Below are positions 4,443-64,000 of a DNA stretch of 64,000 nucleotides, piece after piece. Under the pieces are notes generated by a model. It was not told the DNA's origin. It made no database searches and saw only the letters and a program-made list of their open reading frames with translations. The position numbers and the translations under genes are program-made. Every line of letters starts with the position of its first letter. The first letter of the stretch is position 1. This stretch comes from Ilex aquifolium. Lineage: Eukaryota > Streptophyta > Magnoliopsida > Aquifoliales > Aquifoliaceae. The DNA lies in NCBI GenBank assembly GCA_951799425.1, contig OX637406.1, forward strand, positions 24,484,390 to 24,548,389, read 5' to 3'.

Positions 4443-5601
4443 ATGGCCCGTACAAAAGAAGACGGGCCCCTAGTCAACACAACCCATGGGGTATAGCTCC
4501 CAGAAAAGGGCCAGAGAGGGTCCTAGCTCCCAAGATAGGGAGGAGCGGAGGACGAAGGCGAGGCATGACGCTCGGAGATAGAGAATCGAGGAGAAAGGAG
4601 TGGCGTGCGAGAGGTACGTTGATAGGGTGTCTCTCGGGCCTAACAATGAGGTTGTGAGAATCAGAGAGGCACGGGGTTTGACATTGTGGTTTGAGGAGGT
4701 AAAGGGGTACAACTTAGGCTTGTGTCGTGAATTTTACACAACATTGTCAATGTTCGGGGAGGATGGTGGTCGATTGAGGACCAATGTGAGGGGAAAGGTA
4801 TTTGAGGTGACTCCAGACACTATTGCAACGATGATGGGGTATGACTCTCATGGACTATGTGGCACTCACATATGAGGACCCCACCACGTTCAAGGGAACA
4901 ACGTTGGTCGGGGGACTCAAACATGCTTACGGGGTCATGAATAAGGTATTGCACTACAACCTTATGCCCCGGGGTTCGAAAAAGAACCCAGATATTGAGT
5001 AGTTGGCCTTGCTCCATGCCTTCATGACTGGGGTGCCTATGGATGTGGCGTACATGATATGGGAGGAGATTAGGGAGTTTGCCCAGGCTACAAAGCCAAA
5101 GGCAAATCTTCCCTTTGGTAGTGTCGTCACCGGACTATGCTATCATGCTAAAGTTAAGATGTATGCACACGATACTATTCTCCCCCTAGAGACTGGAGTG
5201 GTAGGAAAGTCCAGCAGTCAAAAGAGGGCTGCTAGGACTGGGGGTGAGAGACCTAGGGCTATGGGCCAGAGCCTTCAATAGCCGGGCCATCTTCTGCAGC
5301 ACCTCCACCTCCTGCTCCCGCACCTGCTCCTGCCCATACCATACCTCAGCGCCTGGATGCATTAGAGTCCACTATGCATGGCCTGTCGATCATGGTTACG
5401 AGGCTCTTCCAACACACATTCCCGGGTGAGCCTATCCCCAGAGGACCACCACCATCCCCACAGCCTCCAGCTGGACCCTCGGCCTCTGTTCATGTGCCTT
5501 CTCCGACTATGGAGGTGAGAGATGATGACGATGACGAGGAGGAGTCAAAGTCCGAGTTCGAGACTGAGGACGATGATACCTTTAATGAGGAGGATGACTA
5601 A
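4443..5601 (+). pseudogene. Element A: decayed post-pol gene (putative plant transposon protein type)
   Basis: The start MARTKEDG at 4443 matches MPRTKMVG of the intact E protein. After an early stop the alternative frame gives a basic segment (SQKRAREG...RRTKARHDARR) matching the E nuclear-signal-like region. CERYVDRVSLG, LWFEEVKGYNLGLCREFY and RTNVRGKVFEVTPDTIATMMG follow, then FMTGVPMDVAYMIWEEIREFAQATKPKANLPFGS. The 3' end has a heptad-like LDALEST segment and an acidic tail (DDDDDEEESK, TEDDDTFNEEDD) ending at 5601. Several stops and frameshifts break it. The function is unknown; see the intact copy at 61785. Confidence 0.85.
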
Positions 5602-5895: not shown

Positions 5896-5931
5896 TTTGC
5901 TAGGGACTAGCAAATCTCAAGTTGGGGGGTG
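5896..5931 (+). promoter_or_regulatory. Element A: conserved hairpin plus 3' polypurine tract
   Basis: A 7-bp stem TTTGCTA/TAGCAAA with loop GGGAC (5896-5914) is followed by the plus-strand priming tract AAGTTGGGGGGTG (5919-5931), which directly abuts the LTR start TGATTGGC. The same hairpin-tract pair is present in K (minus strand, 38345-38380) and E (63263-63299). Confidence 0.85.
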
Positions 5932-15427: not shown

Positions 15428-15431
15428 AGAG

Positions 15432-20189: not shown

Positions 20190-20236
<47 letters not shown>

Positions 20237-23890: not shown

Positions 23891-24176
23891 AACGTTTGAA
23901 CGCCAAGTGACGTTCGAACGTCATCTGCTTGCAGTACTCAACCTCTGATGAAGCTTCTGATGGAACTCAAAAGTACTGGGAGGTCAGCCCGTTCGAACAC
24001 CAATAGAACGTTCAAACGCCAATAGATCGTTCGAACGAGAAGACCTTGCAGTGCTCTAGTCTCTGACATAACTAAAAAGTACTGAGAGCTGGCCACATTC
24101 GAACGACACTCACGTTCGAATGGTCTTTTAAAAATCCTTCTACACACGTTCGAACGTCAGTAACGTTCGAACGTCA
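23891..24176 (+). repeat. Element B: internal ACGTTCGAACGT palindrome array before the post-pol gene
   Basis: About ten copies or near-copies occur, including GACGTTCGAACGTC (23909-23922), AACGTTCAAACGCC (24007), TCGTTCGAACGA (24027) and ACGTTCGAACGT (from 24146). They use the same word as the B LTR. The last copy ends about 12 bases before a TATA box. The layout, palindromes then TATA, copies that of the LTR promoter. Confidence 0.9.
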
Positions 24177-24409: not shown

Positions 24410-25506
24410 ATGCCAAGGGTCAAGCTACCTGCCAGGCGCATTCCACCAACCCAGGAACCCAATTTCGTGGAAGAAGTAGTCGAGGTGAGAGAGGGGAGAC
24501 CCCCCCTTACGCTAAGATACGACAAGACCAGATTTCCTACGGCTCTAAAAGCTTACAGGTACGATAATTTTTACCAAAAGCATGCTGTGGTTTGTAAGAG
24601 GGATGTGGTTTTGACTAGTTTTACTAAGTTGGGTATAATGGCGGAGATGGAGAAGAGAGGTTGAGTCTTGTATTTGCAAAACAGTGGAGAGGCCGTGGTG
24701 CGGGAGTTTTACTCTAACGCCGAAATAGTCAATGGAGCACTGAAAAGCTATGTGAGGAGGGTCCATATAGATGTCCATGAGGACTATATTCAGGAAATTA
24801 GGCAAGAGGTACCTCGAGTCCCAAATCCCACCTATCCCCCAAAAAAGAGTGTGGCGATGAATGTTGTGGGGAAGGAGCTAACGGGAGTGCCTGATTTTTC
24901 TCGGACTAGAAAGAGATTTTTTAGACAAGGGGAACTCACTGACAAATACAAAATGTTAAACTTGATTGCGGTGTCAAACTTTGCTCCAATAGGAAGAAAA
25001 AATGAAATTCTACCTGACATGGCCCGCCTTCTCTACGCTCTTGGGAAAGGTCACAGCATAGACCTCCCCTCTCTCATCTTGAATGAAATGAAGAAGGGTT
25101 GTGATGTGAAGCGGAATTCGCTCCCGTTTGGCACCCTAGTAACTGAAATGTGCAAAGACCATGGAGTTAGGGTGAGGCCAGAAATGGAGATCCAAAAGCC
25201 AATGGAGCCACTGAATAAGGCTTCCTTCCGAAGGAGCCAAGGTCATAGTGGCGGCCAAGCGGCCAGACAAGAGATGCCCCTACCCATGGAGTGGACAAGG
25301 TGCAAGAAGAGCTCGATACAGAGGAGGAGAGAGAGATGGAGGAAGAGAGAGAACAGCCACAGGAGACAGGCCCCAGCACCAGCAGTCGGAGATCACTGAG
25401 AGACATCATGCTTGGCATCGAGACCAAGCAAGCTGAGATTCTCCGACAACAGGAGGAGATTCTTAGCTACCTGAGGGGTGGAGCTGGTGGACCTGGTGGA
25501 GAGTGA
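24410..25506 (+). pseudogene. Element B: post-pol gene (putative plant transposon protein type), nearly intact
   Basis: The start is MPRVKLPARRIPPTQEP. A single TGA at 24662-24664 splits an otherwise continuous frame (EKRG, stop, VLYLQNSGEAVVREFYSN), probably from a Trp codon. The VREFYSN segment and NEMKKGCDVKRNSLPFGTLVTEMCKDHG match the conserved fold region of the E protein (VREFYRSL; EKPMANLPYGSLVTRLCDHAK). A frameshift near 25230-25290 is needed to reach the C-terminus, which has an acidic EEEREMEEER run, then a heptad-like segment (IETKQAEILRQQEEILSYL) and a Gly-rich end at 25506. No membrane segment is seen, so it is not an envelope-like protein. Confidence 0.85.
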
Positions 25507-27368
25507 GAGCGGGGGATTTATGTTCTTGGTTTTGTGTGTTTGTTTCTTCATGTATGGTGTTTTAGTTTTTTGTGATTGATAGTTCCTTCTTTTATGGGTT
25601 AAAAGAAGTTTTTGTGTTGTAGTCACTTCTTTTATGGATGGATTGAATCTTTGATGTGAACAAATCATATTCTATGAAATGAATGGTTCAATTTATCACT
25701 TTTATCTGTTTTAAATGCATAGGTAGATTTAGCTTAATATTGATATATGATGGAACGAATGTGGATGCTAAGAATGTTTGTTAAAGTGACTAAGCACATG
25801 ATCGGTTTGACACCTCAACTTATCAACGTAGACTTAAAACCACATTTCTTGGAAAACTGGTATTCTGTCTATGCTAAATTATCAAATGTACAATGGTATT
25901 TGTTATTTTTTAAGGTACAAGATGATCGGACTCGAAAACGGAATCGGTACATAACCGACATTCCACGAAAAACCTGACATAACCAGTGGAGATGACAAAG
26001 AATATCATGGTAAGTTTTGAGCCTTGCTATACTTTTGAGAGACAATCAACGTTTACTCAAGTAAGGTCTTTCACTCTCAATTTTTGAATAATCTCATTAA
26101 CCTTGCTTTGATTGATGCAATTAAAAGTGATCTATTGACATATCCCACAGGGAACCTTCGCATACGACACATACATGTGCACATGCTCGAGAAATGATCT
26201 TAGGCCATCTTTGATTTAATTTTGAGCCTTAGCCATTTCTTTTTCAAACTTATATCCCTAGTTAGCCATGCTTGAGCCATCAATGTATGATCTCTTCTTC
26301 GATAAACCCGTATGATTACCAAGCCACAAGAGAATATACTTGACATACCTTTGCTATCTAATTTTCTTGCACCCTCTTATAAATCAAGATGATACAGAAA
26401 TGCAAGGAAAAGGGAAAAAGCTATGAAGGGTACTATTCAATGACAAGAAAAATTGATAGGAACAATTGAAATAGAAAAGAAGCAAAAAGGCAGGAAATTG
26501 CCAAGAAAGTGAAAAATGAGAAAAATGAAAGAAAGAAATATCATTTCTGGGCAAAAAGTTGAAAAGCTAGAAAGAGGTGTGCTACACTACATAAACAGAG
26601 GATAACTTTTGAATACTATTGACGTCATTTCGTTAGCCACTGATCTTTGGCCACATTACAACCTATGAAAAGCCCTAATTGATCTCAAGTCTGTTGCATG
26701 CATGTGTCGTCATCCAAAACTGGGGTATGATAAATAGTATTTCTTTAAATTGCACCAATATTCTTTCTTGAGATTATCCCAAACCTGATTAGTATGTTTC
26801 CTTAAACTTCACTCCCTTCTTAATTGTGCATGTGATTTTTCGATTGGCCACCCTCTGATCATATGCCCCGTGAGAGACGAGTCACTATAATCGGAACGAA
26901 CTTTTGTTGAGAGCATTCTACGAGAGGTTTGTGAAATCGAAGCTATCCATGGAAGGTGGTAAAATGGAGTGTTTGTTATATAACAATTCTTGTTGCTAGA
27001 ATGATCATTCCTACTACACAGGGAATTCCAAATACCAATATAACAGATGCTAATTTTTGCATAGAATCAATATGTACGAAAGAGGGACAAGCGGAATAAA
27101 AGTCGAAATTGAGGGTTGGGTGTCCTAATGACCATGATGCTAATTTACTTTAACCAGCAATCTCACATACATATCTGTTCGACTGAAGTTTGTGGGTAGC
27201 TTCACTGGAAACCCTCACGAGACAACACTCGTCCGTTAGGGTAAACCTAGGGGCTCAACGGCTTGTTGCATAAGCTAAATGCAACCGGATGACCTACGAA
27301 AATGGCATTAGGAGTAGATTTTCAATTATTGTATTACTAGAGATTCGCAATATTTAGGTTGGCGGGTG
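25507..27368 (+). other. Element B: 3' non-coding region, conserved block and polypurine tract
   Basis: This holds the diverged conserved block (about 26040-26720: GATCTTAGGCCATC, TTGAGCC, ATATCCCTAG, GGCCACATTACAACC) also found in A, E and K. The polypurine tract TTAGGTTGGCGGGTG (27354-27368) abuts the 3' LTR. The pre-tract hairpin of A, K and E is not conserved here. Confidence 0.7.
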
Positions 27369-28737
27369 TGATTAGTACTTAAAATTAGCATTTTACTATG
27401 CCTTTTTAAGACTAATTGTACTTTGATGGAGTTTAAGTGATGTCATTTCAGGTCTTTAAGTGAACAAGGACTCAAAGAACAATAAGTATGACACTTGAGT
27501 GTAACACCAGCACATTAGGGAACAAAATTGGAGAAGCTTAGAGCACACCAAGAACGTTCGAACGTTAACTCACGTTCGAACGTCCACTTGACCTGTGAGC
27601 AGACCTGACTACTGAGAGAAGGCGTGTTGCAACCAAGAAGGAAGACTCTGAGGCTCTGAGGCACTTGAGTATCACGTTCGAACGCCAACTCACGTTCGAA
27701 CGTCCACTTGAGTAGATAGAGGACCAGACTGCTGGATAGAGTGTGGAAATGAACCTCACAGAAGACCACAGGCCACTTGAGTGAGAAGGTCAGACCACAT
27801 CTGGCGTTCAAACGCCCATACGGAAAGACAGAAAAACGTTCGAACGCCAGACAACGTTCGAACGCCAACTCACGTTCGAATGTTCTCCACAGACTAGTTG
27901 CAGAGTAGTTGGTTTTTCACTTGGACTTGGGCGGCATACACTATTCCTTCACCCCCTCTTGTCTCCCCCTCTTGCCTATAAATACTCCCATTGTTGGAGA
28001 GCTCAAGGAGACCAAGTAGAGAGGTTGATGGAGGCTTAGACTCTCACCCATATTGTAGAATTAGCTTACATTTCCTTGTATGAAGTAGTTGTTCTAGAGA
28101 TTAGTTTGGCTTTAGTCCAACATCTCTTAGCTTGTTATAAAAATAGTTTTATGCTTATGCTTTCACTTACATGCATAGAGGGAGATAACTTACCTTTGGT
28201 TGTGGATCACCCTCCAAAAGTGACCTTTCTTCTACTTTTAATTGGTGTATCATTCACTTCCATTGCTTGAGCTTCTTTCTTCCCTTAGAGGAGTGAAACT
28301 CTTCCACTTTTCTAGAGCTTCGCCAAAGCCGTGAAGGGTGGAACGTGATTCACTCATTCTTGGTCGAAGATCGGCTCCCTGTTTAGTGTGCTTTGCTTTG
28401 AGATCCCTCTACTTGGAGGAATGAGCATCACTCACTTTTCTAGCTTTACCAAAGCCATGAAGAGTGAGTAGTTTCTCATTCACTCTTTAGTAAGAGGAGA
28501 AGGGCATGTATAAATTATCCGGACGTTATATTTGTGCAATTTCCATTATGCTTAATGCTTTATATTCCCCATGCTTATTGAATGATTGATTGTATCTAGC
28601 AAAGCTAAGGTACTTTGTATAACCAGGAGTTCTTTCTATAACATAGATAACTCTTGTATAGAAAGACTCATTGGTTCAAGGCTAGTACCCCGGCTAGATC
28701 TTCATGACTACCCTTCAATCTTCACCATTATTGTGTG
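27369..28737 (+). mobile_element. Element B: 3' LTR, left part
   Basis: It starts TGATTAGTAC directly after the polypurine tract. The palindrome array (27553-27880) and TATAAATA near 27978-27985 are present. It is interrupted after 28737 by solo LTR P, whose GTGTG duplication covers 28733-28737. Confidence 0.95.
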
Positions 28738-31440
28738 TGTGACGCCCCAAAATCCGGGGGTCCCGTTGATAACCCATCAACCTGCGGAAACATCCGTGGA
28801 TATCGCTCAACCCGACACCACATCAAGAATATCTTTAAGCCGGGATTATAACCCATAATGAAAATTCGGTTTAACATTCATTTGATTCAATTAAAGTCTC
28901 ATACACCGTGGTTTGTACCCCATTAGGGTCCACTTTAATCATTTAAAGGAAGGAAATTCAAAGCCCAAAGATTTGGCAACACATTTAAAAAATTTCAGAT
29001 TTTTGGACTGGCTACCGGTAGCTGTTTATCGGCTACCGGTAGCCGAAACATTCTGGAGTTACGACTACCTGTTGTCTACCGGTAGCCGAAACCTTCTGGA
29101 GTTACGACTACCTGTTGTCTACCGGTAGCCGAAACCTTCTGGAGTTACGACTACCTGTTGGCTACCGGTAGCTGATACACACTGGACAGTCGACTACCGG
29201 TAGTTACCCATTGACTACCGGTAGTTGCTGCCCAGATTTGCTTTCTTGCTCCATTTTTCATTTCCAATTCATCCTAACTCAATTCCACATCATCCAAGAC
29301 ATGTACAACTATATTTTTACATTTTGCACAAGATCCATACACGACCATTACAATCTATCCCATACAAATATAATTCAAAAAGGGAATGAAATAAGTTTGT
29401 TTATACAAAATTTACATGTCATAAACCATTGTAAAACAAAAGGTTTACAAAATCTTGAGATAAGGCCGCACTTAGGCCCCCTTCACCCTTGATGCTCTCC
29501 ATGGGAGCCAATCGCCGGTGTAAACCCGACACCTGAAATTGTTTCCCGTATAGGGTGAGCACAACGCCCAGTAGAAAACTTCCTACGGAGGTTACTCCCC
29601 CCTAGATGCTCATGCTCATGTAATATTCACATACAACATGTAATCAATCATTCCACACACACTATGCATTCAACGTTGGAATGCAACAATGCCATGCAAT
29701 GAAATGAGATGAAAACTCATTCATGCAACCCATTCCGAGTCCTCACCGACTCCCTCAACACAATGCAATGCCAATGTGTGATGACCCGTCTATTGACGGA
29801 GAAAAACCTTCCAATGATCATTTGAAAAGAAATCATGTTTTCCCAAAACCGGATCATTGTTGGAAGCTACCCATTGAATGGGTGTTTTTATAACAAAACC
29901 CTTGTGTCTTTGTTGGGCAACGGATCTTCGGAATCACACCGCCGGTTCCGTACACCGTGTCACTTTTCTGGAATTGCACCGCCGGCAAGTGACTGAACCA
30001 AGTGGTTCCGGGTTTTTCACCCGAGGGAGTGTCTAGCCCTACTTGCTACACTCGACACAAGTTTTTCCATGCAACCATGCGACTCAGTCGAAACTTCGTT
30101 CCAACATTCCCGAGCCCATCCACCAAGCACCAAGAATGGTGATTGATTAATCATGTATAACATGCACACACACCCACTCATATCTATGGATGCGATATCC
30201 CCGTGCAAATGCAATGTGATGTTCCATTGCACACATAATAATGCTCAATATGCTCATGACAAACATATAAACATTTCCAATACATCAATGGCAATTATAT
30301 CAAAAGCACATAACTACCATATCTCATTATGTTCAATATATCATTTCATGCATATATCAACAACACTCTTCATCCAACAACCATATCCTAAGCATATGAT
30401 TTCACAATCACCCAAGCATGTTATAACATAGCATTATGCAAGTAACACACACAATTTCACCTAGGCATTTTATCAAACACCTAGTAGTCATTAAAGTCAT
30501 GTCTTCACATAACACATTCCAAGCAACCATATAGCTCAAATTTCACCAAGTTATAAGAGGAACCACATGGAACTCCTATGTAATAAAATCAAGCTAGAAG
30601 TTAGCCTAGGCCAACTCTATGCTCCCTTTTCCATTACCATAACTATAGACATATATATAATTCAATACATATGCATATATAACTTTTAACCCTTAGTCTA
30701 CTAACACCTAAGGTAAGAATAATCCCAAGTAGGAATAATCCTACCTCAATAGAGATGTAGGCAACCTCAATGCACCAAAACCAACCCAAAGTCTTTGATT
30801 TCCAAAATTTCTCCCTTTGAATATTCGGTGAAACGCCTTGTTCTTGGTACGTAGTCGAAGCCCTCGACGAGTAGACGAACTTTAACTCTTGGACTATAGC
30901 CTTCCAACCAAAGGAACTTGGTGGGTCTTGAAGAAGAAGGGTAGAAAATTAGGTTTCTCTTTTCTCTCTCCTTTTTCTCTCCAACGTGTGAGCTCAGCCG
31001 GCCAAGAGAAGAAGAAAATCTGATTTTTCAGATATTTCGGCCCCTATTTATAATTTTAAATGTATGGTCTACATCGCACCGCTCGTTTATTACTTTCGGG
31101 TCCGTTTTTCGTCCCGAAACGACTCATTAAGTCCCGGATTAAGTCCAAATAAATTTTATTGGCACATTAATCCAATTATAAGGAATTTTAATATTTCTCG
31201 TTTTTGGGGACCTTTAAAAGGTCAATCGCCACGCAGTCGTCTCGATTTACGTGCAAAAATCTGACTATCTCGGAATTTAACGAAATTTCTGGTGGTCACT
31301 AGATTTCGCGTTACGAATCCAATGACGCACTCCGTTCCCTCCTTCGAGGTCTAGAACATATGTATTTTAATACGTGCAGTAGTGGCAAATTACCATTTTG
31401 CCCTTTTTCAGAAAAAGTTCAAATTTTCCCGGGTTTCACA
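28738..31440 (-). mobile_element. Solo LTR P, probable Ty3/gypsy chromovirus type
   Basis: It has TGTGACGCCCC...GGGTTTCACA ends and a perfect GTGTG duplication (28733-28737 and 31441-31445). It is 2703 bases with no internal primer site, polypurine tract or pol, hence a solo LTR. Orientation is minus: TATAAATAGGGG on the minus strand is at 31045-31052, followed downstream by transcribed-leader-like sequence, and the minus-strand end GGGGCGTCACA matches the GGGGCGTGACA end of C. It holds seven CTACCGGTAG palindromes (29012-29224). Confidence 0.9.
29012..29224. repeat. P LTR: CTACCGGTAG palindromes in a 43-base tandem repeat
   Basis: Perfect CTACCGGTAG palindromes start at 29012, 29033, 29076, 29119, 29162, 29194 and 29215. 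Four of them are spaced exactly 43 bases apart, inside a tandem unit containing CCGAAACCTTCTGGAG and TTACGACTACCTGTTG. Confidence 0.92.
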
Positions 31441-31445
31441 GTGTG

Positions 31446-32316: not shown

Positions 32317-33518
32317 CAAAAAGTGCGAATCATATACCCCCAATGAAGTGTTTGAAATCAATGAGATGAGGGGTTGGCTCAATGGAAGGCTTGGAGGGTG
32401 AAGAAACCAAGAAAAATGCAGTTTGGATGAAAACCTTCTGAAAGGTTTGGCTAAAAACCTTCTGGAAGTTTTTTGCCTTGGACTGCCAATTCACTGCCAA
32501 AACCTTCTGGAAGGTTTGCAAAACCTTGCGGAAGGTTTTGCCTACTGGATTGCTCATTTAACTGTTCCTACACAAACCTTCCAAAAGGTTTGTGTCGACC
32601 TTCAGGTAGGTTTTTCCCAGATTTCCCAAACAACCTGCAACTCAAGCTCTGCCATTTGGGAGTCCCACTTACACTTCTCCAACATGTCCCCTGACATCCC
32701 TTACACATCTACAGGCCTCCCCTCACCTTCGTTTGGACTTTGAAGGCTTGAGCATTAATGAGGAGAGAGAAGGGCAAGGCATGAGAGAGGAAGGCTATGC
32801 TTGTCATAGCCTGTAGCATTCCATCCAATCAGCCCCTTTTTTTGGTGAAGGCCGGCCACGCACCCTAGAGAGCTCTCTATGGACGAAAATGTAGCATTCA
32901 TGAGGGATTATTAAGTTCATATTACATTATAGAGAGAGAAGCTCAAGGAAGAAGGCATAGTTAGAGAGAAAAAGCTTAGATTTTTACATTTCTTCCATCC
33001 ATTTCTCTTGTAATTTCTTGTAAGACTTTTGTAAGCTTCCTTTATTGTATTTAATGCCACTTATTTCCAGTACATTTCAAGTTTAGTTGAATATCTTAAC
33101 TTCTACCATTAATGTATTTGGGTTTTCTACATTTCAAGCTTTAAATGGGTATTAAATACATTTTCCTGCAGTTTGTGTTTTTCTTACATGAGTTTAAGTT
33201 CAATCTTCATTCTTACAATGTCTCTTCATGCCATTTATGTTTTTGCTTTCATTATGAGTAGCTAAACCTTACGTTGCCTAGTCCAAGGGAGAGCTCCTCT
33301 TGGGTATGCCATTTCAACTCATTTCCTTTCCTTCTCGTAGTGTATGTTGATTTAGTTTGACTGGGTTGAGTGTGGACATGGTTGTGAGTATTTGATACGC
33401 CGTAGACTTTGTCACGGGGTATGCTTGGATCCTCACCTCCGTCCTAACCCCTCACTTCCCACGAATCAATCAAACATCTAGACACCATTGGGGGAAGGTC
33501 TCGAGTTGAGTTGGCATC
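32317..33518 (+). mobile_element. Element F/N: 5' LTR, part 1
   Basis: This is Athila-like LTR sequence into which A inserted. It matches minus-strand K LTR sequence and the R-U5 part of the E LTR (for example GAGTAGCTAAA...CAAGGGAGAGCTCC...GCATGGATCCTCAC-type landmarks near 33258-33440). It carries a decayed CCTTCCGGAAGG array (32434-32610). Its U3 start lies left of A, outside the window. Confidence 0.85.
32434..32610 (+). repeat. F LTR: decayed CCTTCCGGAAGG palindromes
   Basis: Six copies start at 32434, 32458, 32503, 32524, 32578 and 32599. None keeps a perfect CCGG centre: they read CTGA, CTGG, CTGG, GCGG, CCAA and CAGG. Changes at the CG dinucleotide dominate. Confidence 0.85.
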
Positions 33519-34249
33519 TGATGCAATACAATTTGATCCGTTGAGCATAAATGGAGGTCCTATGACTCGGGCAAGAGTAAAAAGAATGAAGGAAGCATTG
33601 AACGGGCTGATTCAAGACATATGGGCTGATTGTGGAAGTTCAAGCAAGGAGCATGATCCACTTGGGCAAAGATCCATCAACATGATCCAAGTTCTAGAAG
33701 ATTCCGGCAAAGGCTAAGCTTTAAATTGGCATGTTTAAAATTGGTCTGATTGTAAGACTTTCCTTAGCTATTTAGGCATGTGAGTTATTCCTTTTAGGAA
33801 AGTAAGAGCTATTTCTTTACCAGCAAGTAAGAGATATTTCTTTACCCACAAGTAAGAGATATTTCTTCACCAGCAAGTAAGAGATATTTCTTAAATAGGA
33901 TAAGCTATTTTAGGAAGTTTTCTTTGTAATAACCAGCCTATAAATAGGCATTCAAAGCATTGTAAAAGACAGAATATTTTGGTGTGTATTGTGAGGTTTC
34001 TACCTTATTGTTCTTCCAAGAACTATTTCAAGAACTTATCAAGAATTAATCTTTCTTGTGGCGTTCATCGACTTATCGCTCAATCTTGAGTGTGGCGTCT
34101 TTCTCTTGAACTTTTAACCTTGGGTTCTTGTTTCTTGCAAACATTGGGTCTAGGGTTCTTAGTTCTTATAATCTGATTTGTGATCTTTCTTGGGGAGTCT
34201 TCAATCAATTTGCCCGTGGGTTCTTGAATTCGTTTAAGGGTTCGCATCA
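33519..34249 (+). mobile_element. Solo LTR H, CRM-like
   Basis: It has TGATGC...GCATCA ends and a perfect GCATC duplication (33514-33518 and 34250-34254). It is 731 bases. The first 200 bases encode the end of a chromovirus pol (GPMTRARVKRMKEALNGLIQ...[13 protein letters not shown], stop at 33715-33717), because in this lineage pol runs into the 3' LTR. A tandem repeat of about 27 bases (AGTAAGAGATATTTCTT) lies at 33803-33892. The TATA box TATAAATA is at 33939-33946. Confidence 0.93.
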
Positions 34250-35658: not shown

Positions 35659-36475
35659 ATGTGGGGAAGGGACGAACAAAACCGATTGTTTAGACAACCC
35701 TTAGGCCCCAACATGAACATTGACCATGACCCACCCGAGGATGCGGGTGATAATTTTGACAATGTAGGTGCCAATCCAAACATGCAAAGGGGTGGGGGAG
35801 TGCTAGAACCTAGAATGCCTAATCCACGAGTGCAATTCCCCCCTCCTATAAATGAAGGGAACAACATCCAAATTGATCCTCCGGTGAGGTCAATGACGGA
35901 TTTTCTTCAACCAACCCATAACACCACACCCTCATGCATCCTCTTACCGGTCCAAGCTCAACTCTTCCTAGTTAAGCCGGGGTATTGTAACTACTTCCAA
36001 CATTCCACGGAATTAAAAAGGAGAACCCTTATTTGCACATCAAAAGAATTTGAGGATATAGTTGCAACCTTCAATGCTAACTATGCTATGGAAGACATAG
36101 CTCGCTTAAAATTGTTTCCCTTTTCCCTTAAGGACAAAGCCAAAACATGGTTGAATTCCTTGCAGCCTCGATCCATCACTTCTTGGGCTTAAATGCTTTT
36201 TGATTTTTTGAATAAATTTTTCCCAGTGCATAGAACCACCATTTAAAAAAGCAAATTAAAAACTTTTTCGAAAAGCCCAATGAGCAATTCTATCACTGTT
36301 GGGATCGCTACAAGGAATTACTCTAATCCGTACCACATCATGGTTTTCAATCTTTCAATTGGTAAGTTTCTTCTATGAAGGAATCACACCGGGCCATAGA
36401 CAATTCATTGACATGATGTGTAATGGCGAGTTCTTAAACAAGGACCCCAATGAGGCCCTAAACTACTTTAGTACA
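35659..36475 (+). pseudogene. Element F/N: gag remnant, Athila type
   Basis: [20 protein letters not shown] matches the start of the E polyprotein. An open stretch runs to the stop at 36192 (LKLFPFSLKDKAKTWLNSL). Shifted frames continue with [27 protein letters not shown] and EALNYFST. It is cut at 36475 by element K. The rest of this element is not found to the right of K, probably lost in the deletion near 46652. Confidence 0.9.
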
Positions 36476-38344
36476 TGCTTTATTGTTTCCGTTGTGTTCC
36501 CAATTCTCCGTCAATGAACCCTCAATGTGTAAGACTTATATGTGTGGGTGAGTGTCACTCTCAATAGGATTCAATGCAAGAAATGAGAAACGGAATGTGT
36601 GGAATGAATGGAAATGAGATGTGTGTGTGTGAACAAAAAAGCTCCCCAAGCGCAGAGAGACTTTTGCTTGTCTTGTTTTACTTGGAAAAGTATTCCAAGG
36701 TCGTCTCCTCAGGGAAGGAAAGTTCAAGTGTGGTGAAGGTGATTTTGTAAAAAATGGAAAAGTGTAAAATCTTGTAGTTGGTTTTGGTGAGTTTTGTTCT
36801 TAATGAAAATGCAAGAAAACAAGTGTTGGCTAATCCGAAGAGGTCATTCCAATGGGGATGCAAAATCAACTCGAAACCTTCCTCCAATGGTGCCTAGATG
36901 CTCGATTGATTCGTGCGAAGCTCAGGACGAGATGGAAGTGAGGATCCAAGTATAACCCGTGACAAGTCTACGGGATATCAAAGACTCACAACCACGTCCA
37001 CACCCCAACCCAGTCAAACCGAACCATCGTACACCAAGAGGAGGAATGGAAATGAGTTGAGATAGCACACTCAAGAGGAGATCTCCCTTGGATTAGCCAA
37101 CTAAAAATCTAGCTACTCATGAAGCAAGAAAGAATTGCATAATGTAAAGAGACATACTAAAGGAAGGAAGATTAGAACTTAGTTTAATGCAAGAAAATAG
37201 AAACTATGAAGTAAAAAATGCAATACCCATTTTAAAGCTTGAAGTGAAGAAAACTTAAATGCATTAATGGTAGATTCAAAAACATGAAACTAAACTTGCA
37301 ATACACTTGAAATAAATAAGATTAAAGTGCAAGAATTAAGGATTACAAGATATTTAAAGCTTACTACAACTGAAATGAAGATGAAAATGCAAAAACATAA
37401 ATTTCTATCTCTAAATATTCATCTTCTTCCTTAGAGCATTCTAAGCTTAGCTAGCCACCCCCAAAAATCTTGTGGAATGCTGAATATATGGTGAAAGAGC
37501 TCTGCATTTTTGTCCATAGGGGTCCTCTAGCATGTGTGTGTAGGCCTCCCATTAATGGGAGGTGAGTTAATGGCTTTTGACAAGCTAGGACAAGCCTAGC
37601 CTGCACCCATCATGGCTGCCCCCTTCTCTCCCATCCTCATTAATGTCATTGTCTCCAAAGTCTTCAACTAGGGTGTAGAAGGCATGTAAATATGTAAGGG
37701 ATGTCAAGGGACAAGTGGGAGAATCAATGGTGGGACCCCCAAGCAAGTGGAGCATAAGTTGCAGGCGCTCTGGGCATTCTGGGCAAAACCTTCCGGAAGG
37801 TCGATGCAAACCTTCCGGAATGTTCATTCCAGTAGGCTAAACCTTCCGGAAGGTCTTCCGGAAGGTGACATCTCAGGACCAGTTTTGATAGATTTGTCAT
37901 AACGTTTGATCCAATTGTCCGATTGAGCTGAAATTTTGATACAATATATAGGACATACAGATCTACAACTTTCATGTTTTTCACTTTTTCAGATTCTAAG
38001 TGGATAATGGTCAAAAATGGGGAAAACAGAAGGTCATGTAAACAGAAGGTCATGTTTTGCATTTTTTCCAATTCCAGTGGGCCAAACCTTCCGGAAGGTT
38101 ATCTTCCAAATGCATTTTTATTGATTTCTTCACCTTCCAAGCCTCCCAATCCTCATGTATTGTGTCCATCCCTTCACCACCATTCACACTTAGTTGCAAA
38201 AGCCATCATTTACGCTATAATTACCTGCAACATCAAAATTTCCACATTATTCATAACTTTGGCTAACTCTAAGTAATTAAATGCAAAGTTAAGTTAAAAA
38301 GCATGTAATGAGGTCATTAAATATGCAATGTTTTATGCTCATCA
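36476..38344 (-). mobile_element. Element K: 3' LTR
   Basis: In minus orientation it runs from TGATGAGCATAAAAC (38344) to AAGCA (36476), 1869 bases. U3 has five CCTTCCGGAAGG-type palindromes, at 37789, 37809, 37842, 37854 and 38087. The first dinucleotide pair is TG...CA once the AAGCA end is used. A TATA-like ATATATTC lies near 37480. Confidence 0.9.
37789..38098 (-). repeat. K LTR: CCTTCCGGAAGG palindromes
   Basis: Three perfect 12-base palindromes (37789-37800, 37842-37853, 38087-38098), one overlapping-context TCTTCCGGAAGG (37854-37865) and one CCTTCCGGAATG copy (37811-37822 region). The centres are much better preserved than in the F LTR. Confidence 0.88.
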
Positions 38345-38380
38345 CACCCCCCAACTTAAGCTTTGCTAGTCCCTAGCAAA
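38345..38380 (-). promoter_or_regulatory. Element K: conserved hairpin plus 3' polypurine tract
   Basis: The minus strand reads TTTGCTA-GGGAC-TAGCAAA (38362-38380) then AAGTTGGGGGGTG (38345-38357), abutting the LTR. The hairpin is identical to A's. Confidence 0.87.
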
Positions 38381-53543: not shown

Positions 53544-56500
53544 ATGTGGGGAAGGGACGACTATCATCGATTAGTTAGACAACCCTTAGGCCCCAACATG
53601 AATATCGACCAAGACCCACCCGAGAATGTGGGTGACAATGTTGAAAATATAGCTTTCAACCAAAACATGCAAGGGGGTGGGAATTTTGACAATGTAGGTG
53701 CAAACCTAAATGACCAAAGGGGTGGGGGAATGCCCGAACATAGGGAGCATGACCCAAGATTACACTATCCCCCTCCAGATCAATTTGACAATGTGGGTGT
53801 CAACCCAAATATGCGAGGTGGTGGGAGAGTGCAACCACCTAGAATGCCCAATCAACAAGCGCATTTTCCCCCACCAAGGAATGAAGGGAACATCCCACTT
53901 GATTTTGAGGCAAGAACTATGCAAGAGTACCTTCAACCAACCCGTAGCACCACACCATCATGCATCCGTCTCCCTGTCCAACATCACCTTTTTGTGTTAA
54001 AACCGTGGATGTTGCAACTAATCCCCAAATTCAGGGGGGTTGAAAATGAGAACCCGTATAACCACATAAGGTCTTACGAGGAAATGGTTGCAACGTTTCT
54101 CCCAAATCACAATTTGGAAGAGATAGCCAGGATGAAATTGTTCCCTTTCTCTATGGATGGGAAGGCAAGAGTGTGGCTTGATTCCATGGGACCACAGACT
54201 ATGCTATCTTGGGATAACATTGTCTCCTTTTTCTTAAAAAAATTTTTCCCGGTTCATCGAACCACCTTTTTGAAAAAGGAAATCCAAAACTTTTCTGAAA
54301 AACCCAATGAGCAGTTTTATCAATGTTGGGACCGTTATAAGGATCTACTTCACTCCATACCACATCATGGTTTTAACTCATGGCAATTGGTGACTTTCTT
54401 CTACGAAGGAATCACCCCAGACCATAGACAATTCATAGATATGATGTGCAATGGTGAATTCTTGAACAAAGATCCCGATGAGGCCCTAGACTATTTTGGT
54501 ACCCTCGTTGAAAAGGCACAAACTTGGGGTGTTCAGGATCCGGATGACATACCTAGGACAATGCCGGGTAGTAGTCAACCACCACGGGGGGGGATGTATG
54601 ACTTAAAAGACCGTGAGGATCTACTTTCCCAAATTTCCAAATTGTCTAGGAAAGTGGATAGCCTTGAGGTGGAGAGGAGACGAAATGTCTCTCATGTGTC
54701 AAGAGCCGAGGAGGTTTGTTCTGTTTGTGGTGGTGTCGAGCATTCCACATCGGAGTGTCCGAGCATCCCGGCACTTAAGGAGGCATACCATGACCAAGTT
54801 AATGCCTTCAACCAACCAAGGCAATCATTTCCTCCAAATCCCAACACTTACAATTCGGGGTATCGTGATCACCATAATTTCAGTTGGAGGAATGAGAACC
54901 CCATTCCCTATGGCTCTAACACATATACACCTCCTGCACCTCCCAAGCAAGGTTCGTACCAATCACAACATCAAGGTCAAGGGCAAGCTTCTAGCTCCCA
55001 ATACCCACGAACCAATCCACAAGGGTACCAATCCAACCCTCCCCCACAGAATTTTGCCGGACAAGGCCCATCTAGTTCTTCCAGCTACCAACCACCTCAT
55101 AAACGGAGTCTAGAAGATGTGGTCCATACCTTCATTCAAAGCCAAACCACCTTCAATAAGGACATTTCGGCCCAACTCACCAAAATCACCAATTCCATTG
55201 GGTTGTCTCAACAAGAGAAGGGAAAATTTCCCTCTCAACCTCAACAAAATCCTAAAGGTCAAAATGTGATTGAGTTGGCCGACACCACCCAAGAGAGTTG
55301 TGAACAACTCAAGTCAGTGACTACCCTTCGAAGTGGCAAGGAAATAAATAAGACCATGTTGCCAAAGGCCTCGCCCAAGGCCGCATCGCCACTTGAGAAA
55401 GAGACTAAGGGTAGCACCAATGGTGGTGGGGTGAGTGAGAGTAAAGAAAGTGAGGTGGTTGACAAAGAGAAATTGAGTGATGAAGATGTGACTGTTTTTC
55501 CTATCCCTGCCCCATTCCCTAATCGTTTGAAGCCACCTCTCAAGGTGGCTAATTATGCTGACATTTTGGATTTGTTTAAGCAGGTAAAGATAAACATTCC
55601 GCTCCTGGATGCCATCAAGCAAATCCCCTCTTGTGCAAAGATCTTAAAGGACTTGTGCACAGTAAAAAGAAGGCTAAATGTCCACAAAAGAGCATTCCTT
55701 ACCGAGCAAGTGAGCTCAATTTTGAGGACTAACACTCCTCCCAAGTTTAAGGATCCCGGCTGCCCCACCATTGCCATAACCATTGGAGATTGCCGGGTGG
55801 AACAAGCCTTGCTTGATTTAGGTGCTAGTGTGAACCTCCTCCCCTACTCTGTGTATCAACAACTTAAGCTGGAGGAATTGAAGCCTACTCCAATCACGCT
55901 TCAACTGGCGGACCGCAGTGTTCGCACACCAAGGGGAGTGGTTGAGGATGTTTTAGTCCAAGTGGATAAGTTTTACTTTCCTGTTGATTTCATTGTGCTT
56001 GATACTCACCCTGTTGCTAATCTTAACTCTCAAATCCCTGTGATACTAGGTAGACCTTTCCTTGCTACATCTAATGCTGTGATTAATTGCAGGAATGGTC
56101 TTATGAAGCTGGCATTTGGAAACATGACAATGGAGCTTAATGTGTTCAACCTATGCAAGCAACCGGGGGATGATGAGGATGCACATGAGGTAAATCGGAT
56201 TGATACCTTGGTGGAAGAGCACATGGAGTTGATGAGCACTTTGAGTGTGGAAGATGAAGAAGTTGTTGAGCATGAAGAAGTGGAAAGCTTGAAAGGGGTG
56301 GAGAAGTGGATTCCTACATTTGAAAGACTCCCACACCAAGAAAAGAAGATATTCCCATCTGATGTACAAAAACCTGCCTTAGAATTGAAGCCTTTACCTT
56401 CCCATTTGAAATACGCATATCTTGGGGAAGATGAATCGTTCCCGGTGGTGATTAGTTCTACATTGGATGTAAAGCAAGAGGGAGAGCTCTTGGAAGTGCT

Positions 56501-59294
56501 GCGGAGACATAAGGGAGCAATTGGTTGGACAATTGCGGATATAAAGGGGATCAACCCTACCATTTGCACACACCGGATCTACCTTGAAGAAGATGGGAAA
56601 CCATCCCGCCAGCCACAAAGGAGATTAAATCCAATCATGAAAGATGTGGTACGGGATGAAGTTCTAAAGCTACTTGACGTGGGCATTATCTTTCCAATTT
56701 CCGACAGTAAGTGGGTTAGTCCCACGCAAGTAGTCCCCAAGAAGTCGGGCGTGACCGTGGTGGAAAACGAGGAGAATGAGCTCATTCCAACAAGAGTAAT
56801 CACTGGGTGGAGAGTGTGTATTGATTACCGGAAGCTCAACTTGTGCACAAAGAAAGACCACTTTCCAATTCCATTCCTCGATCAAGTGCTAGAACGGGTA
56901 GCGGGGCATCTTTTCTATTGCTTCTTAGATGGATACTCTGGCTACAATCAGATAGAGATTGCCCTTGAAGACCAGGAGAAAACCACCTTCACTTGCCCCT
57001 ACGGTACCTTTGCGTATCGTCGCATGCCTTTCGGGCTATGTAATGCCCCTGGAACATTCCAACGTTGCATGATGGGGATTTTTAGTGATATGGTGGAGAA
57101 GATTGTCGAGGTGTTTATGGATGACTTCTCAGTCTTCGGGGACTCCTTTAAGGGGTGTTTGGAAAATTTGGAGAAGGTGTTGGAGAGATGTGAGGAGAAG
57201 AATCTTGTGCTAAATTGGGAGAAGTGTCACTTTATGGTGACGGAAGGGATCGTGTTGGGTCACATAGTGTCGGCAAGGGGCATTGAAGTGGACAGATCCA
57301 AGGTGGAGGCCATCTCCAACCTTCCCACGCCGACAACCATCAAGGGAATCCGGTCATTTTTGGGCCATGCAGGTTTCTATCGCCGGTTCATTCAAAATTT
57401 TAGTGCATTGGCCCGACCCCTGACCAATTTACTGTCTAAGGATGTTCCCTTTGAGTGGTCGCATGAGTGTGAGGCATCTTTTAAGAAACTAAAAAGCATG
57501 CTTGTCACGCCTCCTATCATGCAACCACCCAATTGGGATCTACCCTTCGAGCTTATGTGCGACGCGAGTGACTACGCGGTCGGCGCAGTGCTTGGTCAGA
57601 GGAAGGACAATCGACCGCATGTTATACACTACGCTAGCAAGACACTTAATGAGGCACAAATGAATTACACTACCACTGAAAAAGAATTGCTAGCTGTAGT
57701 GTTTGCTCTTGATAAATTCCGTTCATATATCATTGGTTCACCTATTGTTATCTTCACTGACCATTCTGCCTTAAAGTACTTGTTATCTAAGCAGGATGCG
57801 AAGCCAAGACTCATTAGGTGGATCCTCCTCCTACAAGAATTTGACTTGACCATTAAAGACAAGAAGGGAGTTGAGAATGTTGTGGCGGATCACTTATCCC
57901 GGCTGGTGGCACAAGAGACAAATGAGCACATCCCTATCCCAGACTCGTTCCCTGATGAGCAATTACTGTCTATTCATTCTCATTGTCCTTGGTATGCTGA
58001 CATTTGCAATTATCTTGCAACAGGACAAATCCCACCACACTGGAGCTCTGAGGATAAAAGGAGATTTATGGCCGACGTGAAATACTTCTACTTCGATAAT
58101 CCGTATCTGTTCAAGTATTGTCCGGACCAAATCATGAGGCGATGTGTGCCTGAAAATGAGCAGCGGAACGTCCTTGCCTTCTGTCACTCCCAAGCCTGTG
58201 GTGGCCATTTCTCCGCCAAGAAAACTTCTTCAAAGATTCTCCAATCAGGTTTCTACTGGCCTTCTTTAATTAAGGATTGTATTTCATTTTGCAAAGAATG
58301 TGATAGATGCCAACGGTTGGGGAGTGTGACCCAAAGGAATATGATGCCTCTCTCCCCTATACTTGTGATAGAAATATTCGATTGTTGGGGCATCGATTTC
58401 ATGGGTCCCTTCCCTATGTCGTTTGGCTATCTATACATTCTGCTGGCAGTGGACTACGTGTCCAAATGGGTGGAGGCTATCCCGACAAAGACTAATGACC
58501 ACCGGGTTGTGGTCAAGTTCTTGAAAGAGAACATTTTTTCGAGGTTCGGGATGCCTCGTGCTTTGATTAGTGACGGTGGATCACATTTCTGTAACAGGCC
58601 AGTTGCATCTTTAGTGTTGAAATATGGTGTTACACATAAAGTATCCACCGCTTATCACCCACAAACAAATGGCCAAGCCGAGCTAGCCAATAGGGAGATC
58701 AAGACCATCCTTGAGAAAACAGTTAACCCCAATAGGAAGGATTGGTCTGAGAGATTGATTGATGCCCTGTGGGCATATCGTACTGCCTACAAGACAGTTT
58801 TGGGCATGTCCCCCTATCGGCTTGTCTATGGAAAGGCTTGCCATCTGCCGGTAGAAATGGAACACAAGGCCTATTGGGCCATCAAGACCCTAAATTTCAA
58901 TATGAGAATGGCCGGGAACCATAGGATGCTAGAAATGAATGAATTGGAAGAGATTCGGCGGGATGCATACGAGAGTTCCAAAATTTCAAAGGAACGGGCG
59001 AAAATCTTTCATGATAACTCCATAGTGAGGAAATCATTCGAGCCCGGGCAAAAAGTACTCTTGTATAATTCCCGCCTCTCCATTTTTCCTGGAAAGCTAA
59101 GATCCCGTTGGGATGGCCCCTATCTTGTCAAGGTGGCCTACCCCAATGGAGCTGTTGAGATCACCAACCTCAAAGATGGCCAAACATTCAAGGTCAATGG
59201 CCAAAGACTTAAGCCATTCTTTGAGGGCTTTGAAAACCAAGTGGTGGAGGAAGAGTTAACCGACCCGGTGTATCCGGACTTGGTTGAGGAATAA
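53544..59294 (+). CDS. Element E: gag-pol polyprotein, Athila type, intact
   Basis: 1916 residues in one frame, starting [10 protein letters not shown]. Residues about 1-160 are Asn/Pro/Gly-rich with repeats of FDNVGVNPN. Gag core about 165-330 ([16 protein letters not shown]). CCHC knuckle [14 protein letters not shown] at about 392-405. A Gln/Pro/Ser-rich linker follows. Aspartic protease [12 protein letters not shown] at about 755. RT about 1050-1230 with CIDYRKLN and FMDDFSVFG near 1190. RNase H about 1330-1450 ([25 protein letters not shown]). Integrase has the HHCC domain near 1547-1590 ([10 protein letters not shown]...CKECDRCQR) and a DDE core at DFMGPFP near 1616, SDGGSHF near 1675 and [10 protein letters not shown] near 1716, then RWDGPYLVK near 1855. 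There is no chromodomain. Every catalytic residue I looked for is present, so it is probably competent. Confidence 0.97.
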
Positions 59295-61351: not shown

Positions 61352-61437
61352 CAGTACCGGTACCAAAAACCTACTGGAAACGCAGTACCGGTACCCAGTA
61401 CCGGTACCAAATGGTACCGGTACCGAGTACCGGTACC
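61352..61437 (+). repeat. Element E: internal GTACCGGTAC palindrome array
   Basis: Copies start at 61352, 61384, 61397, 61413 and 61426, using the same word as the LTR. The stretch CAGAACAGTACCGGTAC, the spacer AAACCTACTGGAAACGC and CAGTACCGGTACCCAGTACC (in pieces) match the LTR array almost base for base while flanking sequence does not. This indicates a copied regulatory module. Confidence 0.93.
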
Positions 61438-61508
61438 GTTTGCCTGACAGAAAATTTTTTATTAGGGCTTTTAATTTCAAATTCTAGTTTTAACCTTTCA
61501 TTTCCCTC

Positions 61509-61684
61509 ATTTACTCCTTCCCTTCCTACTTCCCCCCTACCCGACGGCACTCCAAGGGTCATGAGCCTTTTCTCTCTCCTTCTTCACTCTACCCATTTAC
61601 TCCTCCCCTTCCTTCTTTCCCCCTTACCCGACGGAACTCCAAGGGTCCATAATCCTTTTTGCTTCCCCTCTCACTCTATAAATT
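61509..61684 (+). promoter_or_regulatory. Element E: duplicated pyrimidine-rich promoter segment with TATA box
   Basis: Two tandem copies of about 86 bases (ATTTACTCCT...CACTCTA) start at 61509 and 61595. The upstream copy ends CTCTACCC; the downstream copy ends CTCTATAAAT, giving TATAAAT at 61677-61683. This is 108 bases before the post-pol start codon and 240 bases after the palindromes. It is the likely internal promoter. Confidence 0.68.
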
Positions 61685-61784
61685 TCCCTTTAAGCTAGAT
61701 TATTTTTTTCACAGGCCTCCTCCATTCTACCCTACCCTTATAGCCGAATCTCAAATCTCTCCTATTATCTCCATTCATTACACA

Positions 61785-62981
61785 ATGCCTCGCACCAAGA
61801 TGGTCGGGTCAGGACCAGAGCCCAGTTCTCCCCCTGCCATGGGTTCTGCCAGCCGCAAACGAAGTGGAGAGGGATCGAGTGTGGACCTTGAGAAGCAGAG
61901 AAAGAAGGCCAAGAGGGATGCTCGCCGCCAATTGATTGACGGTAAGAATGTGACTTGTGAACGTTCTTTGGATAGGCCTTCCCTTTCCCCCACTCATCCT
62001 GCTGTGAGAATCGTTGAGGGGCATGGGATGCAATTTTGGTTTAGGGAGGTTGTGGGATATAATTTGGCCTTGGTGAGGGAGTTTTACCGGTCATTGAATT
62101 TCATTGAGAATGATGATGAGGGAGTGCTGAGGGCAAATGTTAGGGGTAAGATTATTGTGGTGACTCCTGCTGTCATAGCCACATGCCTTGGGGATTACCA
62201 GAGACCCCCAGCCACACCACCTGTTTATCCTCGCAGAATGGGTAAGCAGAAGACTAAAGAGGAGCTTGTCGAGCTGATGTATGAGGATCCTGCTACGTTC
62301 AGGGGAACCTTTCAGAGTGGGGGGTTGAAGCATGTATATGGGATTCTTAACAAACTCCTTCACTATAATCTTTACCCAAAGTTTGCTGAGAAGAAACCGA
62401 ATGTGGAGAAGTTGAACCTTCTAGATACATTTGTGTCGGGCATACCAATGGATTTTGCCCTTATCATTTGGGATGTGATGAAGGACTTTGCCACCACTGA
62501 GAAGCCGATGGCCAATCTACCATACGGAAGCTTGGTCACCCGACTTTGTGACCATGCTAAGGTCAAGGGCTATGGACTAGAGAAATTGACCCCTCCGGAG
62601 TTTGGAGCTATCGGCAGGGCCAGCAGTCAGAAAAGGAAGGCCATGAGCCGTGGGGATCGGGCTCAGTCTGACTCTGAAGAGGATGTTGCACCTGCTGTGC
62701 CAACTATGCCATTCAAGCCTGTTGTGAAACGCTCAACCCATCAGAGACTTAGTGCTCTGGAAAAGACAACGCAGGAAATCAAGACCTCAGTGCAGGAAAT
62801 GGCAACAATGTTAAAGGAGATGTATGTGCACACATTTCCTGGGAAAGCCGTCCCAGAAGTTCCGCCTGCTCCTTCAACCTCCAGAATGGATGTGGAGGAG
62901 GAAGATTCAGAGGCTGAAGAGGATGAAGAAGATGAGGGGGGGGATGAGTCTGAGGGGGATGATGAGAGTGATGGAGAGTAG
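61785..62981 (+). CDS. Element E: intact post-pol protein (putative plant transposon protein type), candidate regulator
   Basis: 398 residues from MPRTKMVGSG. I chose this start over 61659 because it aligns with MARTK in A and MPRVK in B and lies downstream of the TATA box. A basic cluster RKR at 24-26 plus KQRKKAKRDARR at 37-48 resembles a bipartite nuclear signal. The core about 55-270 (FREVVGYNLALVREFY; LRANVRGKIIVVTPAVIATCLG; FVSGIPMDFALIIWDVMKDFA; ANLPYGSLVTRLCDHAK) resembles the domain annotated in plants as putative plant transposon protein, of unknown function. Near 325-350 is a heptad-like LSALEKTTQEIKTSVQEMATML segment able to form a coiled coil. The last 35 residues are almost all Glu, Asp, Gly and Ser. 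There is no signal peptide or membrane segment, so it is not an envelope. A nuclear, dimeric, DNA-acting regulator is my inference. Confidence 0.9.
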   Translation: MPRTKMVGSGPEPSSPPAMGSASRKRSGEGSSVDLEKQRKKAKRDARRQLIDGKNVTCERSLDRPSLSPTHPAVRIVEGHGMQFWFREVVGYNLALVREFYRSLNFIENDDEGVLRANVRGKIIVVTPAVIATCLGDYQRPPATPPVYPRRMGKQKTKEELVELMYEDPATFRGTFQSGGLKHVYGILNKLLHYNLYPKFAEKKPNVEKLNLLDTFVSGIPMDFALIIWDVMKDFATTEKPMANLPYGSLVTRLCDHAKVKGYGLEKLTPPEFGAIGRASSQKRKAMSRGDRAQSDSEEDVAPAVPTMPFKPVVKRSTHQRLSALEKTTQEIKTSVQEMATMLKEMYVHTFPGKAVPEVPPAPSTSRMDVEEEDSEAEEDEEDEGGDESEGDDESDGE

Positions 62982-63299: not shown

Positions 63300-64000
63300 T
63301 GATTAGCACACAACTTTGCATATCTTTAAGATGCTAATCAACTCATTTCACTTACTTTAGAGCTTTAAATTATGTACGTTATGCCACTTGAAGTCTTAAC
63401 ATCAAGTTGTTGTTCTTGTAGTTGAATGAAGCTAAATATGGCCTTTAAAGACCCTCCCATACCACTTGGGATGAAAGGAGTGGGAATGATAGTTCGAGGA
63501 TAGATCGGGAGCAAGAAATCAAGAAATTCAGAAAAGGATGCAGAACAGTACCGGTACTCGGTACCGGTACCCAGTACCGGTACCCAAAACCTACTGGAAT
63601 CGCAGTACCGGTACCCAGTACCGGTACTGATTCCCTGAAGTGCCCAAACTCTGCAGATCTGCTCAGCTGTCTTGTGGACCCCTCCATGCTTCTCTCTGAT
63701 ACGCCCACCTTTCTATTCATCAGGACTCACACTCCCTTCTAGACTTGTGGATTTAAAGCATTGAATGAAGAGAGAGAGGATGGGATGAGCTGGGTAGGCA
63801 GACATGCTCTGCCACTTCCTGTCTGTCCCTGGCTGCTGCACTCCTCTGAGACAAAAACAGATGGGAGACTCCCTCTTCTCCAGAATGGGGAGTGAAGGGA
63901 AAAAGGGGCTTTTCTCCATAGCAAAGGAAATTACACCAAGAAGGCAAGTTGGGGTGCAGGGAGTTGCTGCATCTTCCTGGTCCAAGCCTGCAGACTAGGC
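63300..64000 (+). mobile_element. Element E: 3' LTR, cut by the window end
   Basis: The first 701 bases, identical by inspection to 51577-52277 (constant offset 11723, identical shadow peptides). The palindrome array recurs at about 63547-63628. Confidence 0.95.

Follow-up and report, generated by a model that had tools for sequence, protein, structure and literature searches.

The window analysed here, a 64-kb stretch of Ilex aquifolium DNA (64,000 nucleotides of contig OX637406.1, positions 24,484,390 to 24,548,389), contains long terminal repeat (LTR) retrotransposons, designated E, B and A, that each carry a gene downstream of pol (the post-pol gene) and an array of a short palindromic word, which stands in a promoter-like position ahead of that gene and recurs in the LTR of the same element. 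The LTR word equals the pre-gene word in all six families in which both places were read (E, A, B and clades F, G and I), the fold predicted for the E post-pol protein matches that of the VANC21 protein of VANDAL transposons, and the E word is shared with elements that lack the gene. We consider it somewhat probable that these Athila-like families encode a VANC-fold palindrome binder that regulates its own gene and acts on cognate LTRs, probably against silencing, with other elements riding along. The term Athila-like serves as a label only, adopted because an earlier reading of this DNA from its letters (the sequence-only reading) used it and because PF20167, the domain of the post-pol protein, occurs in a published Athila element (PMC11728184).

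In the window, GTACCGGTAC occurs 15 times and every copy lies within E, in three arrays of five (5'LTR, ahead of the post-pol gene, and 3'LTR). By comparison, when 10-base-pair (bp) palindromes were counted in 200 simulated sequences with the nearest-neighbour composition of the window, the maximum for any such palindrome was 5 copies and the mean of the maxima was 2.4. The family words are perfect palindromes, and the LTR and pre-gene modules of E have the short flank GCAGAACA in common. A pattern scan placed TATA-like boxes 3' of the arrays before the E post-pol gene, before the B post-pol gene and in the B LTR. The first 701 bp of the E 5'LTR are 100% identical to the in-window portion of the 3'LTR by self-BLAST; therefore, judging from sequence identity over this comparable part, the insertion of E was probably recent.

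Element B repeats the arrangement with its own word, CGTTCGAACG, of which 15 exact copies are distributed over the 5'LTR (5), the pre-post-pol array (4) and the 3'LTR (6). The pre-gene array of A at 3891-4051 holds one exact 12-mer of CCTTCCGGAAGG and four one-mismatch copies. The 3'LTR of A is split by a solo LTR of a different family, flanked by a TATAC target duplication, and B sits within that solo LTR; the resumed part of the A 3'LTR holds A words within one mismatch at 32503 and 32524 and no exact copies, and therefore the A word is also present in the A LTR. The alternative of an A LTR without the A word was rejected, the intervening sequence being the nested solo LTR of the other family. 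For a further element, A', no post-pol match was found in the stretch examined, although its LTR carries the A word. The observations of the sequence-only reading, which had reported for E one array shared by the LTR and the stretch ahead of the post-pol gene, a different word used likewise in B, and an array preceding the post-pol gene of A, are thus confirmed, and for A they are extended to the 3'LTR.

A first look with PF20167 yielded 6661 candidates in the host assembly (800 Mb, 103 contigs); 150 of these are scored matches, and all rows listed exceed the cut-off. The E protein gave 5513 candidates and 104 scored matches, which fall in groups of about 99, 93, 90 and 70% identity. The pairing in E was read in the window, at loci L009 and L010, and in a relative of about 72% (L059 with L060), whose LTR and pre-gene modules have the short flank TTTGCCTGAC in common. 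The words differ between families, though those of G and I have the core CGTCCGGACG in common. In clade F, the boxes lie upstream of the gene in 29 of 30 PF20167 loci (none at L032) and downstream in 1 of 30, as counted with a motif that was chosen from these same 30 loci, all assigned to clade F by eye. The stretches of L055 and L057 stop short of the LTR module. The word TGATCGATCA of clade H was rejected as a clear case, since it consists of A/T-rich repeats and the LTR was not found.

The arrays might instead have arisen by passive homogenisation, with an LTR segment copied ahead of the gene during reverse transcription and then amplified by slippage, no trans-acting factor being involved. 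In clade I (L054, gene orientation, 899-934), the pre-gene module recurs in the 3'LTR as an exact 36-bp inverted copy, a sign that modules have been copied within the element, even in inverted form, and the short flanks common to LTR and pre-gene modules in E and in its 72% relative would also suit such copying. Homogenisation is nevertheless an improbable explanation of the arrays: the E group keeps GTACCGGTAC exact in 10 of 10 pre-gene regions across protein identities of about 70 to 100% while spacers and copy numbers change, and the word is common to LTRs whose flanks do not align.

Comparison of the words with the encoded proteins bears on the claim of the sequence-only reading that each family co-evolved a post-pol protein with its own palindrome. 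The proteins share a core but differ in sequence, as that reading had stated: A and E are 56% identical in the PF20167 domain, with A read in pieces, and their words differ. Among the clades compared, B, G and I are mutually closest (38-47% identity, tree support 0.856; the A piece A_p1 is included in the identity table and left out of the tree), and their half-sites (B CGTTC, G CGTCC, I CGTCC) have the pattern CGTYC|GRACG in common. Judged from these sequences, related proteins go with related words, a graded covariation over few clades. The claim is partly supported, in that six of six families match, their words differ, related words accompany related proteins and the predicted fold matches VANC21, whereas the expectation that the word would be exclusive to carriers of the gene did not hold.

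Across all fetched sequence, GTACCGGTAC was found in 235 exact and 35 one-mismatch copies (twelve listed categories), counts in which some copies are entered twice where fetched loci overlap. Of the one-mismatch copies, 26 of 35 are C>T or G>A changes and 13 of these lie at the central CpG, as expected of methylated CpG.

The post-pol proteins carry PF20167 (Putative plant transposon protein), with E-values of 1.2e-24 for E and 4.7e-22 for the B piece; Pfam placed this domain in 24 of 24 members, with DUF1985 and DUF287 absent among the 17 families listed. The basic cluster, heptad segment and acidic tail described by the sequence-only reading are present in E: the N-terminal cluster has a net charge of +6 over amino acids (aa) 20-52, the heptad pattern at aa 312-352 is weak (7 of 11 a/d positions hydrophobic), and the tail at aa 366-398 has a net charge of -20 across 33 residues. 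The predicted model of E aa 41-292 matches the DNA-complex structure of VANC21 (PDB 9lnj, fold-search row). A first structure model built from 4 input sequences was discarded as too poor, at a pLDDT (predicted local distance difference test) of 40.1. A protein search of 5.8 billion sequences returned only P0001 and P0002, a scan of IMG/VR for the E protein gave no confirmed match, and Foldseek against viral models gave no E-value of 0.001 or better.

Sense post-pol open reading frames (ORFs) are often discussed as env-like in the accessible text of two reports (PMC11728184, PMC7264820), and the protein could accordingly have an accessory role (envelope-like, in movement or in RNA binding), with the array merely as its promoter. 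A profile search of PDB sequences gave weak matches; almost all of them involve the coiled-coil segment, whose weak resemblance to coiled coils in the PDB would fit a structural role. Such an accessory role is very improbable given that E has a basic N-terminus and appears to have no strongly hydrophobic stretch (best 19-residue Kyte-Doolittle mean 1.48, a crude test), that the PF20167 ORF of sunflower Athila has a predicted nuclear signal, and that the predicted fold matches a DNA-binding protein.

The closest comparison is with the VANC proteins of Arabidopsis VANDAL elements, which, according to the accessible parts of the cited papers, bind short motifs arrayed within the elements that encode them (PMC5735166, PMC10398659). 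As in that system, a protein encoded by a transposable element (TE) occurs here together with dense arrays of a short motif in the element's own non-coding DNA, families differ in word, an unrelated TE can carry the word, and the fold predicted for the PF20167 domain matches VANC21. Unlike the Mutator-like VANDAL DNA transposons, the carrier here is an LTR retrotransposon, as E has LTRs and a gag-pol with reverse transcriptase (RT) and integrase; the motifs are perfect palindromes; and the domain is PF20167, neither of the two named as VANC domains, DUF1985 and DUF287 (PMC5735166, accessible part). VANC binds its motif and removes DNA methylation; for the PF20167 protein both activities are putative. 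A 2026 meeting report states, in its accessible portion, that unpublished VANC structures suggest coevolution with the target DNA (PMC12859917).

Published work on Sireviruses, a Ty1/copia group, already describes palindromes both in the LTR and ahead of a post-pol gene; these motifs contain CG, are specific to each element and lie upstream of ENV as well as of the TATA box in the LTR (PMC2829016). The accessible part of that paper gives 77 of 79 linker copies upstream of ENV, none in the four listed ENV-less elements, and a CGG-CCG signature in 12 of 13, and it does not link the ENV protein to the motif (PMC2829016). B and F resemble this layout, with palindromes ahead of both the LTR TATA box and the post-pol gene, whereas the integrase of E follows RT and RNase H, unlike in Ty1/copia, and the words here do not contain CGG-CCG. 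In sunflower Athila, an additional 3' ORF after pol has the same Pfam domain in the same position, together with the predicted nuclear signal; unlike here, the accessible text mentions no palindromes or DNA-binding role (PMC11728184), and the same group left open in 2026, in the portion available, whether Athila ORFs affect methylation (PMC12844716). No link of an Athila post-pol protein to palindromes or VANC was found in the accessible open-access literature; the sequence-only reading knew of no such system for Athila-type elements.

The E word also occurs outside gene-carrying elements. A 25-mer with two E words had 831 matches on one strand of the assembly and 819 on the other, compared with 0 and 0 for the reversed control. 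Twelve regions were hand-picked among the first 100 listed matches, all on contig C1, and their proportions are not genome frequencies. Two of the 12 belong to the E family; five (L012, L013, L017, L018 and L019) have a pol 25-37% identical to that of E; and five have no pol match to E, among which L015 has an RVP_2 ORF. Arrays of GTACCGGTAC lie inside repeated LTRs in L013, L017, L018 and L019 (Pfam RVP_2 or SH3_Tf2-1), L012 has the E word near such a pol but showed no pair of LTRs in the part examined, and a PF20167 match was found in none of the five stretches read. We take these RVP_2/SH3_Tf2-1-type Ty3 elements to be chromovirus-like. Their LTRs align to the E LTR only across a module of about 80 bp, in which a box resembling AACCTWCTGGAATCG or AACCCACTGGAAAG has paired words on either side. 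A similar box (CCTACTGGAAT in A' and AAACCTTCTGGAG in the CTACCGGTAG insert) stands beside other palindromes; therefore the module is common to several lineages and the palindrome within it can differ.

The presence of the E word in gene-less Ty3 LTRs weakens exclusivity, and four of 12 regions with the exact word in such LTRs come close to the pattern, arrays in gene-less elements, that the sequence-only reading had set against itself. Word sharing is compatible with a host factor and also with elements that ride on an activator supplied by E. For the latter, the accessible part of one paper offers a published precedent: AT9TSD1, unrelated to VANDAL, has VANC6 motifs, is hypomethylated and is partly derepressed by VANC6 (PMC5735166), which allows the word-bearing gene-less Ty3 elements to be read as hitch-hikers.

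The main rival holds that the arrays act as enhancers for host transcription factors, each family, like unrelated Ty3 families, having captured sites for one such factor, with the post-pol promoter reusing the sites for co-expression with the LTR while the protein does something else. The exact word and its module in gene-less elements would suit this explanation; long TTCTAGAA arrays resembling heat-shock elements occur in another nested element of the window and therefore make host-factor use by LTRs plausible in this genome; and Sirevirus palindromes hold stress-factor sites, with stress regulation raised as a possibility (PMC2829016). We judge host factors a rather unlikely explanation: several different ones would be needed, all favouring perfect palindromes of 10-12 bp; related words accompany related proteins; and the account does not predict the fold match to VANC21.

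Under the favoured reading of a VANC-fold palindrome binder, the post-pol protein, transcribed from its own promoter downstream of pol, would be a sequence-specific DNA-binding protein whose sites are the arrays of family-specific palindromes that lie in the LTR and ahead of the gene, and it may bind as a dimer. Binding would increase transcription both from the cognate LTR and of the protein's own gene, by analogy with VANC probably by displacing silencing rather than by ordinary activation. The resulting positive feedback would operate in trans and serve all word-bearing copies, among them derivatives that lack the gene and members of unrelated Ty3 families that have taken up the module. The E domain would be expected to prefer GTACCGGTAC over ACGTTCGAACGT or CCTTCCGGAAGG.

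Several results, in addition to the word sharing described above, weigh against this reading. Foldseek against PDB gave no match at an E-value of 0.001 or better, with the VANC21 row not among the 50 listed, and sequence and profile searches gave no link of PF20167 to VANC or DUF1985. An hhalign comparison of PF20167 with one DUF1985 ORF gave a probability of 0.7%, which is not significant; its best local pair, VRGK..VTP..I with IHGK..FSP..V, is likewise not significant, and the same ORF found nothing relevant among PDB sequences. The sites of VANC21 are not palindromes and share a single orientation within their arrays, as stated in the accessible part of PMC5735166. No TATAAA/TATATA box was found by pattern scan before the A post-pol gene or in the scanned stretch of the E LTR. 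For F, G and I, the LTR reading comes from one copy each, with the start of the 3'LTR placed from a polypurine-like tract and not from LTR-LTR comparison; in clades H (L052, L053, L058) and J (L056) no clear array was seen and no LTR was recognised. Words that track protein clades are equally expected from plain descent, and both the step that leads from predicted fold to DNA binding and the further one to unsilencing are ones that we infer. Overall, the interpretation offered by the sequence-only reading is partly supported, its proposed covariation being visible as a graded trend.

To our knowledge, sequence-specific anti-silencing by a TE protein has been described only for VANDAL DNA transposons. 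An LTR retrotransposon counterpart of VANC would, if real, give the Athila post-pol ORF a function, explain the element-specific CG palindromes adjoining post-pol genes, and provide natural pairs of protein and DNA word for the study of specificity evolution; LTR retrotransposons make up much of plant genomes. With words shared by families that lack the gene, the parasitism of one transposon on another could be tested directly. A broader reading, which we advance tentatively and with some doubt, is that plant LTR retrotransposons use a protein-palindrome code homologous to VANC, in which every family matches a single PF20167 protein to a single palindrome serving its LTR and the promoter of that protein, that protein and word switch together as pairs in evolution, that other Ty3 lineages captured the module and so exploit a foreign activator, that the palindromes near Sirevirus ENV apply the same principle in Ty1/copia, and that VANC, DUF1985 and PF20167 form one superfamily of transposon anti-silencers.

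Table 1. Features of elements A, B and E in the window (positions counted from its first letter) and family words read at loci fetched from the assembly.
Feature	Position	Strand	Remarks
A pre-post-pol array	3891..4052	.	CCTTCCGGAAGG and decayed copies
A post-pol gene	4468..5601	+	broken copy, read only piecewise, ends approximate
Start of A 3'LTR	5931..6088	+	interrupted at 6089 by solo LTR resembling clade I; A' LTR alignment, flanking TATAC
B 5'LTR array	7645..8007	.	CGTTCGAACG x5 exact; TATAAA at 8102
B pre-post-pol array	23893..24173	.	CGTTCGAACG x4 exact and variants; TATAAA at 24187
B post-pol gene	24410..25507	+	broken (internal stop codon; end approximate); PF20167 in piece 24692-25273
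B 3'LTR array	27555..27882	.	CGTTCGAACG x6 exact
Insert in B 3'LTR, solo-LTR-like	28736..31441	.	CTACCGGTAG x7 at 29012-29224
Remainder of A 3'LTR	32343..33520	+	decayed A words at about 32435-32600; aligns to A' LTR
A' LTR	36475..38347	-	CCTTCCGGAAGG array at 38100-37790
E 5'LTR	51577..53385	+	self-BLAST and sequence reading; 3' limit inferred from primer-binding-site-like TTGGCGCCGTTGCCGG at about 53387
E LTR array	51825..51904	.	5 x GTACCGGTAC; spacer box CCTACTGGAATCG
E gag-pol	53544..59294	+	single 1916-aa ORF (gag, protease, RT, RNase H, integrase)
E array before post-pol ORF	61354..61436	.	5 x GTACCGGTAC, near-identical spacer box CCTACTGGAAACG
TATAAA between E array and post-pol ATG	61677..61682	+	putative own promoter (function inferred)
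E post-pol gene	61785..62981	+	398 aa, PF20167; single open frame
E 3'LTR	63300..64000	+	extends beyond window end; 5 x GTACCGGTAC at 63548-63627
Clade F word GCGCCTAGGCGC	L022 with L070		GCGCCTAGGCGC and CAGCGCC boxes pre-gene, again after polypurine-like tract, before TATAAAAAG
Clade G word GCGTCCGGACGC	L051		CGTCCGGACG x7 ahead of TATAAATA and ATG; x2 in LTR
Clade I word CCGTCCGGACGG	L054		CCGTCCGGACGGCAGTCCCACCGTCTGGACGGTGG pre-gene; exact inverted copy in LTR

Among the other regions with the E word, L014 contains a piece of PF20167 (9467-9901) that lies beyond the LTR pair of that region. At G000:C1:61705818-61727045, at least five 25-mer matches follow each other at a spacing of about 5301 bp, and in L016 two neighbouring units are 99.85% alike over 3375 bp, which marks a tandem array of an E-word unit. 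An IMG/VR contig (L067) carries eight copies of GTACCGGTAC at 4222-4406 and phage-like ORFs by eye; it was rejected as a retroelement and matches neither the E proteins nor the fetched loci, and its words are therefore ascribed to chance or to an unrelated origin.

The solo-LTR-like insert in the B 3'LTR has GTGTG on each side by eye, and a CTTCTGGAG box adjoins its seven CTACCGGTAG copies. Additionally, an element nested in B has its two LTRs at 13770-15428 and 19592-21335, with extended TTCTAGAA/AGAATATTCT arrays resembling heat-shock elements, and from these motifs the element is possibly a heat-responsive retrotransposon.
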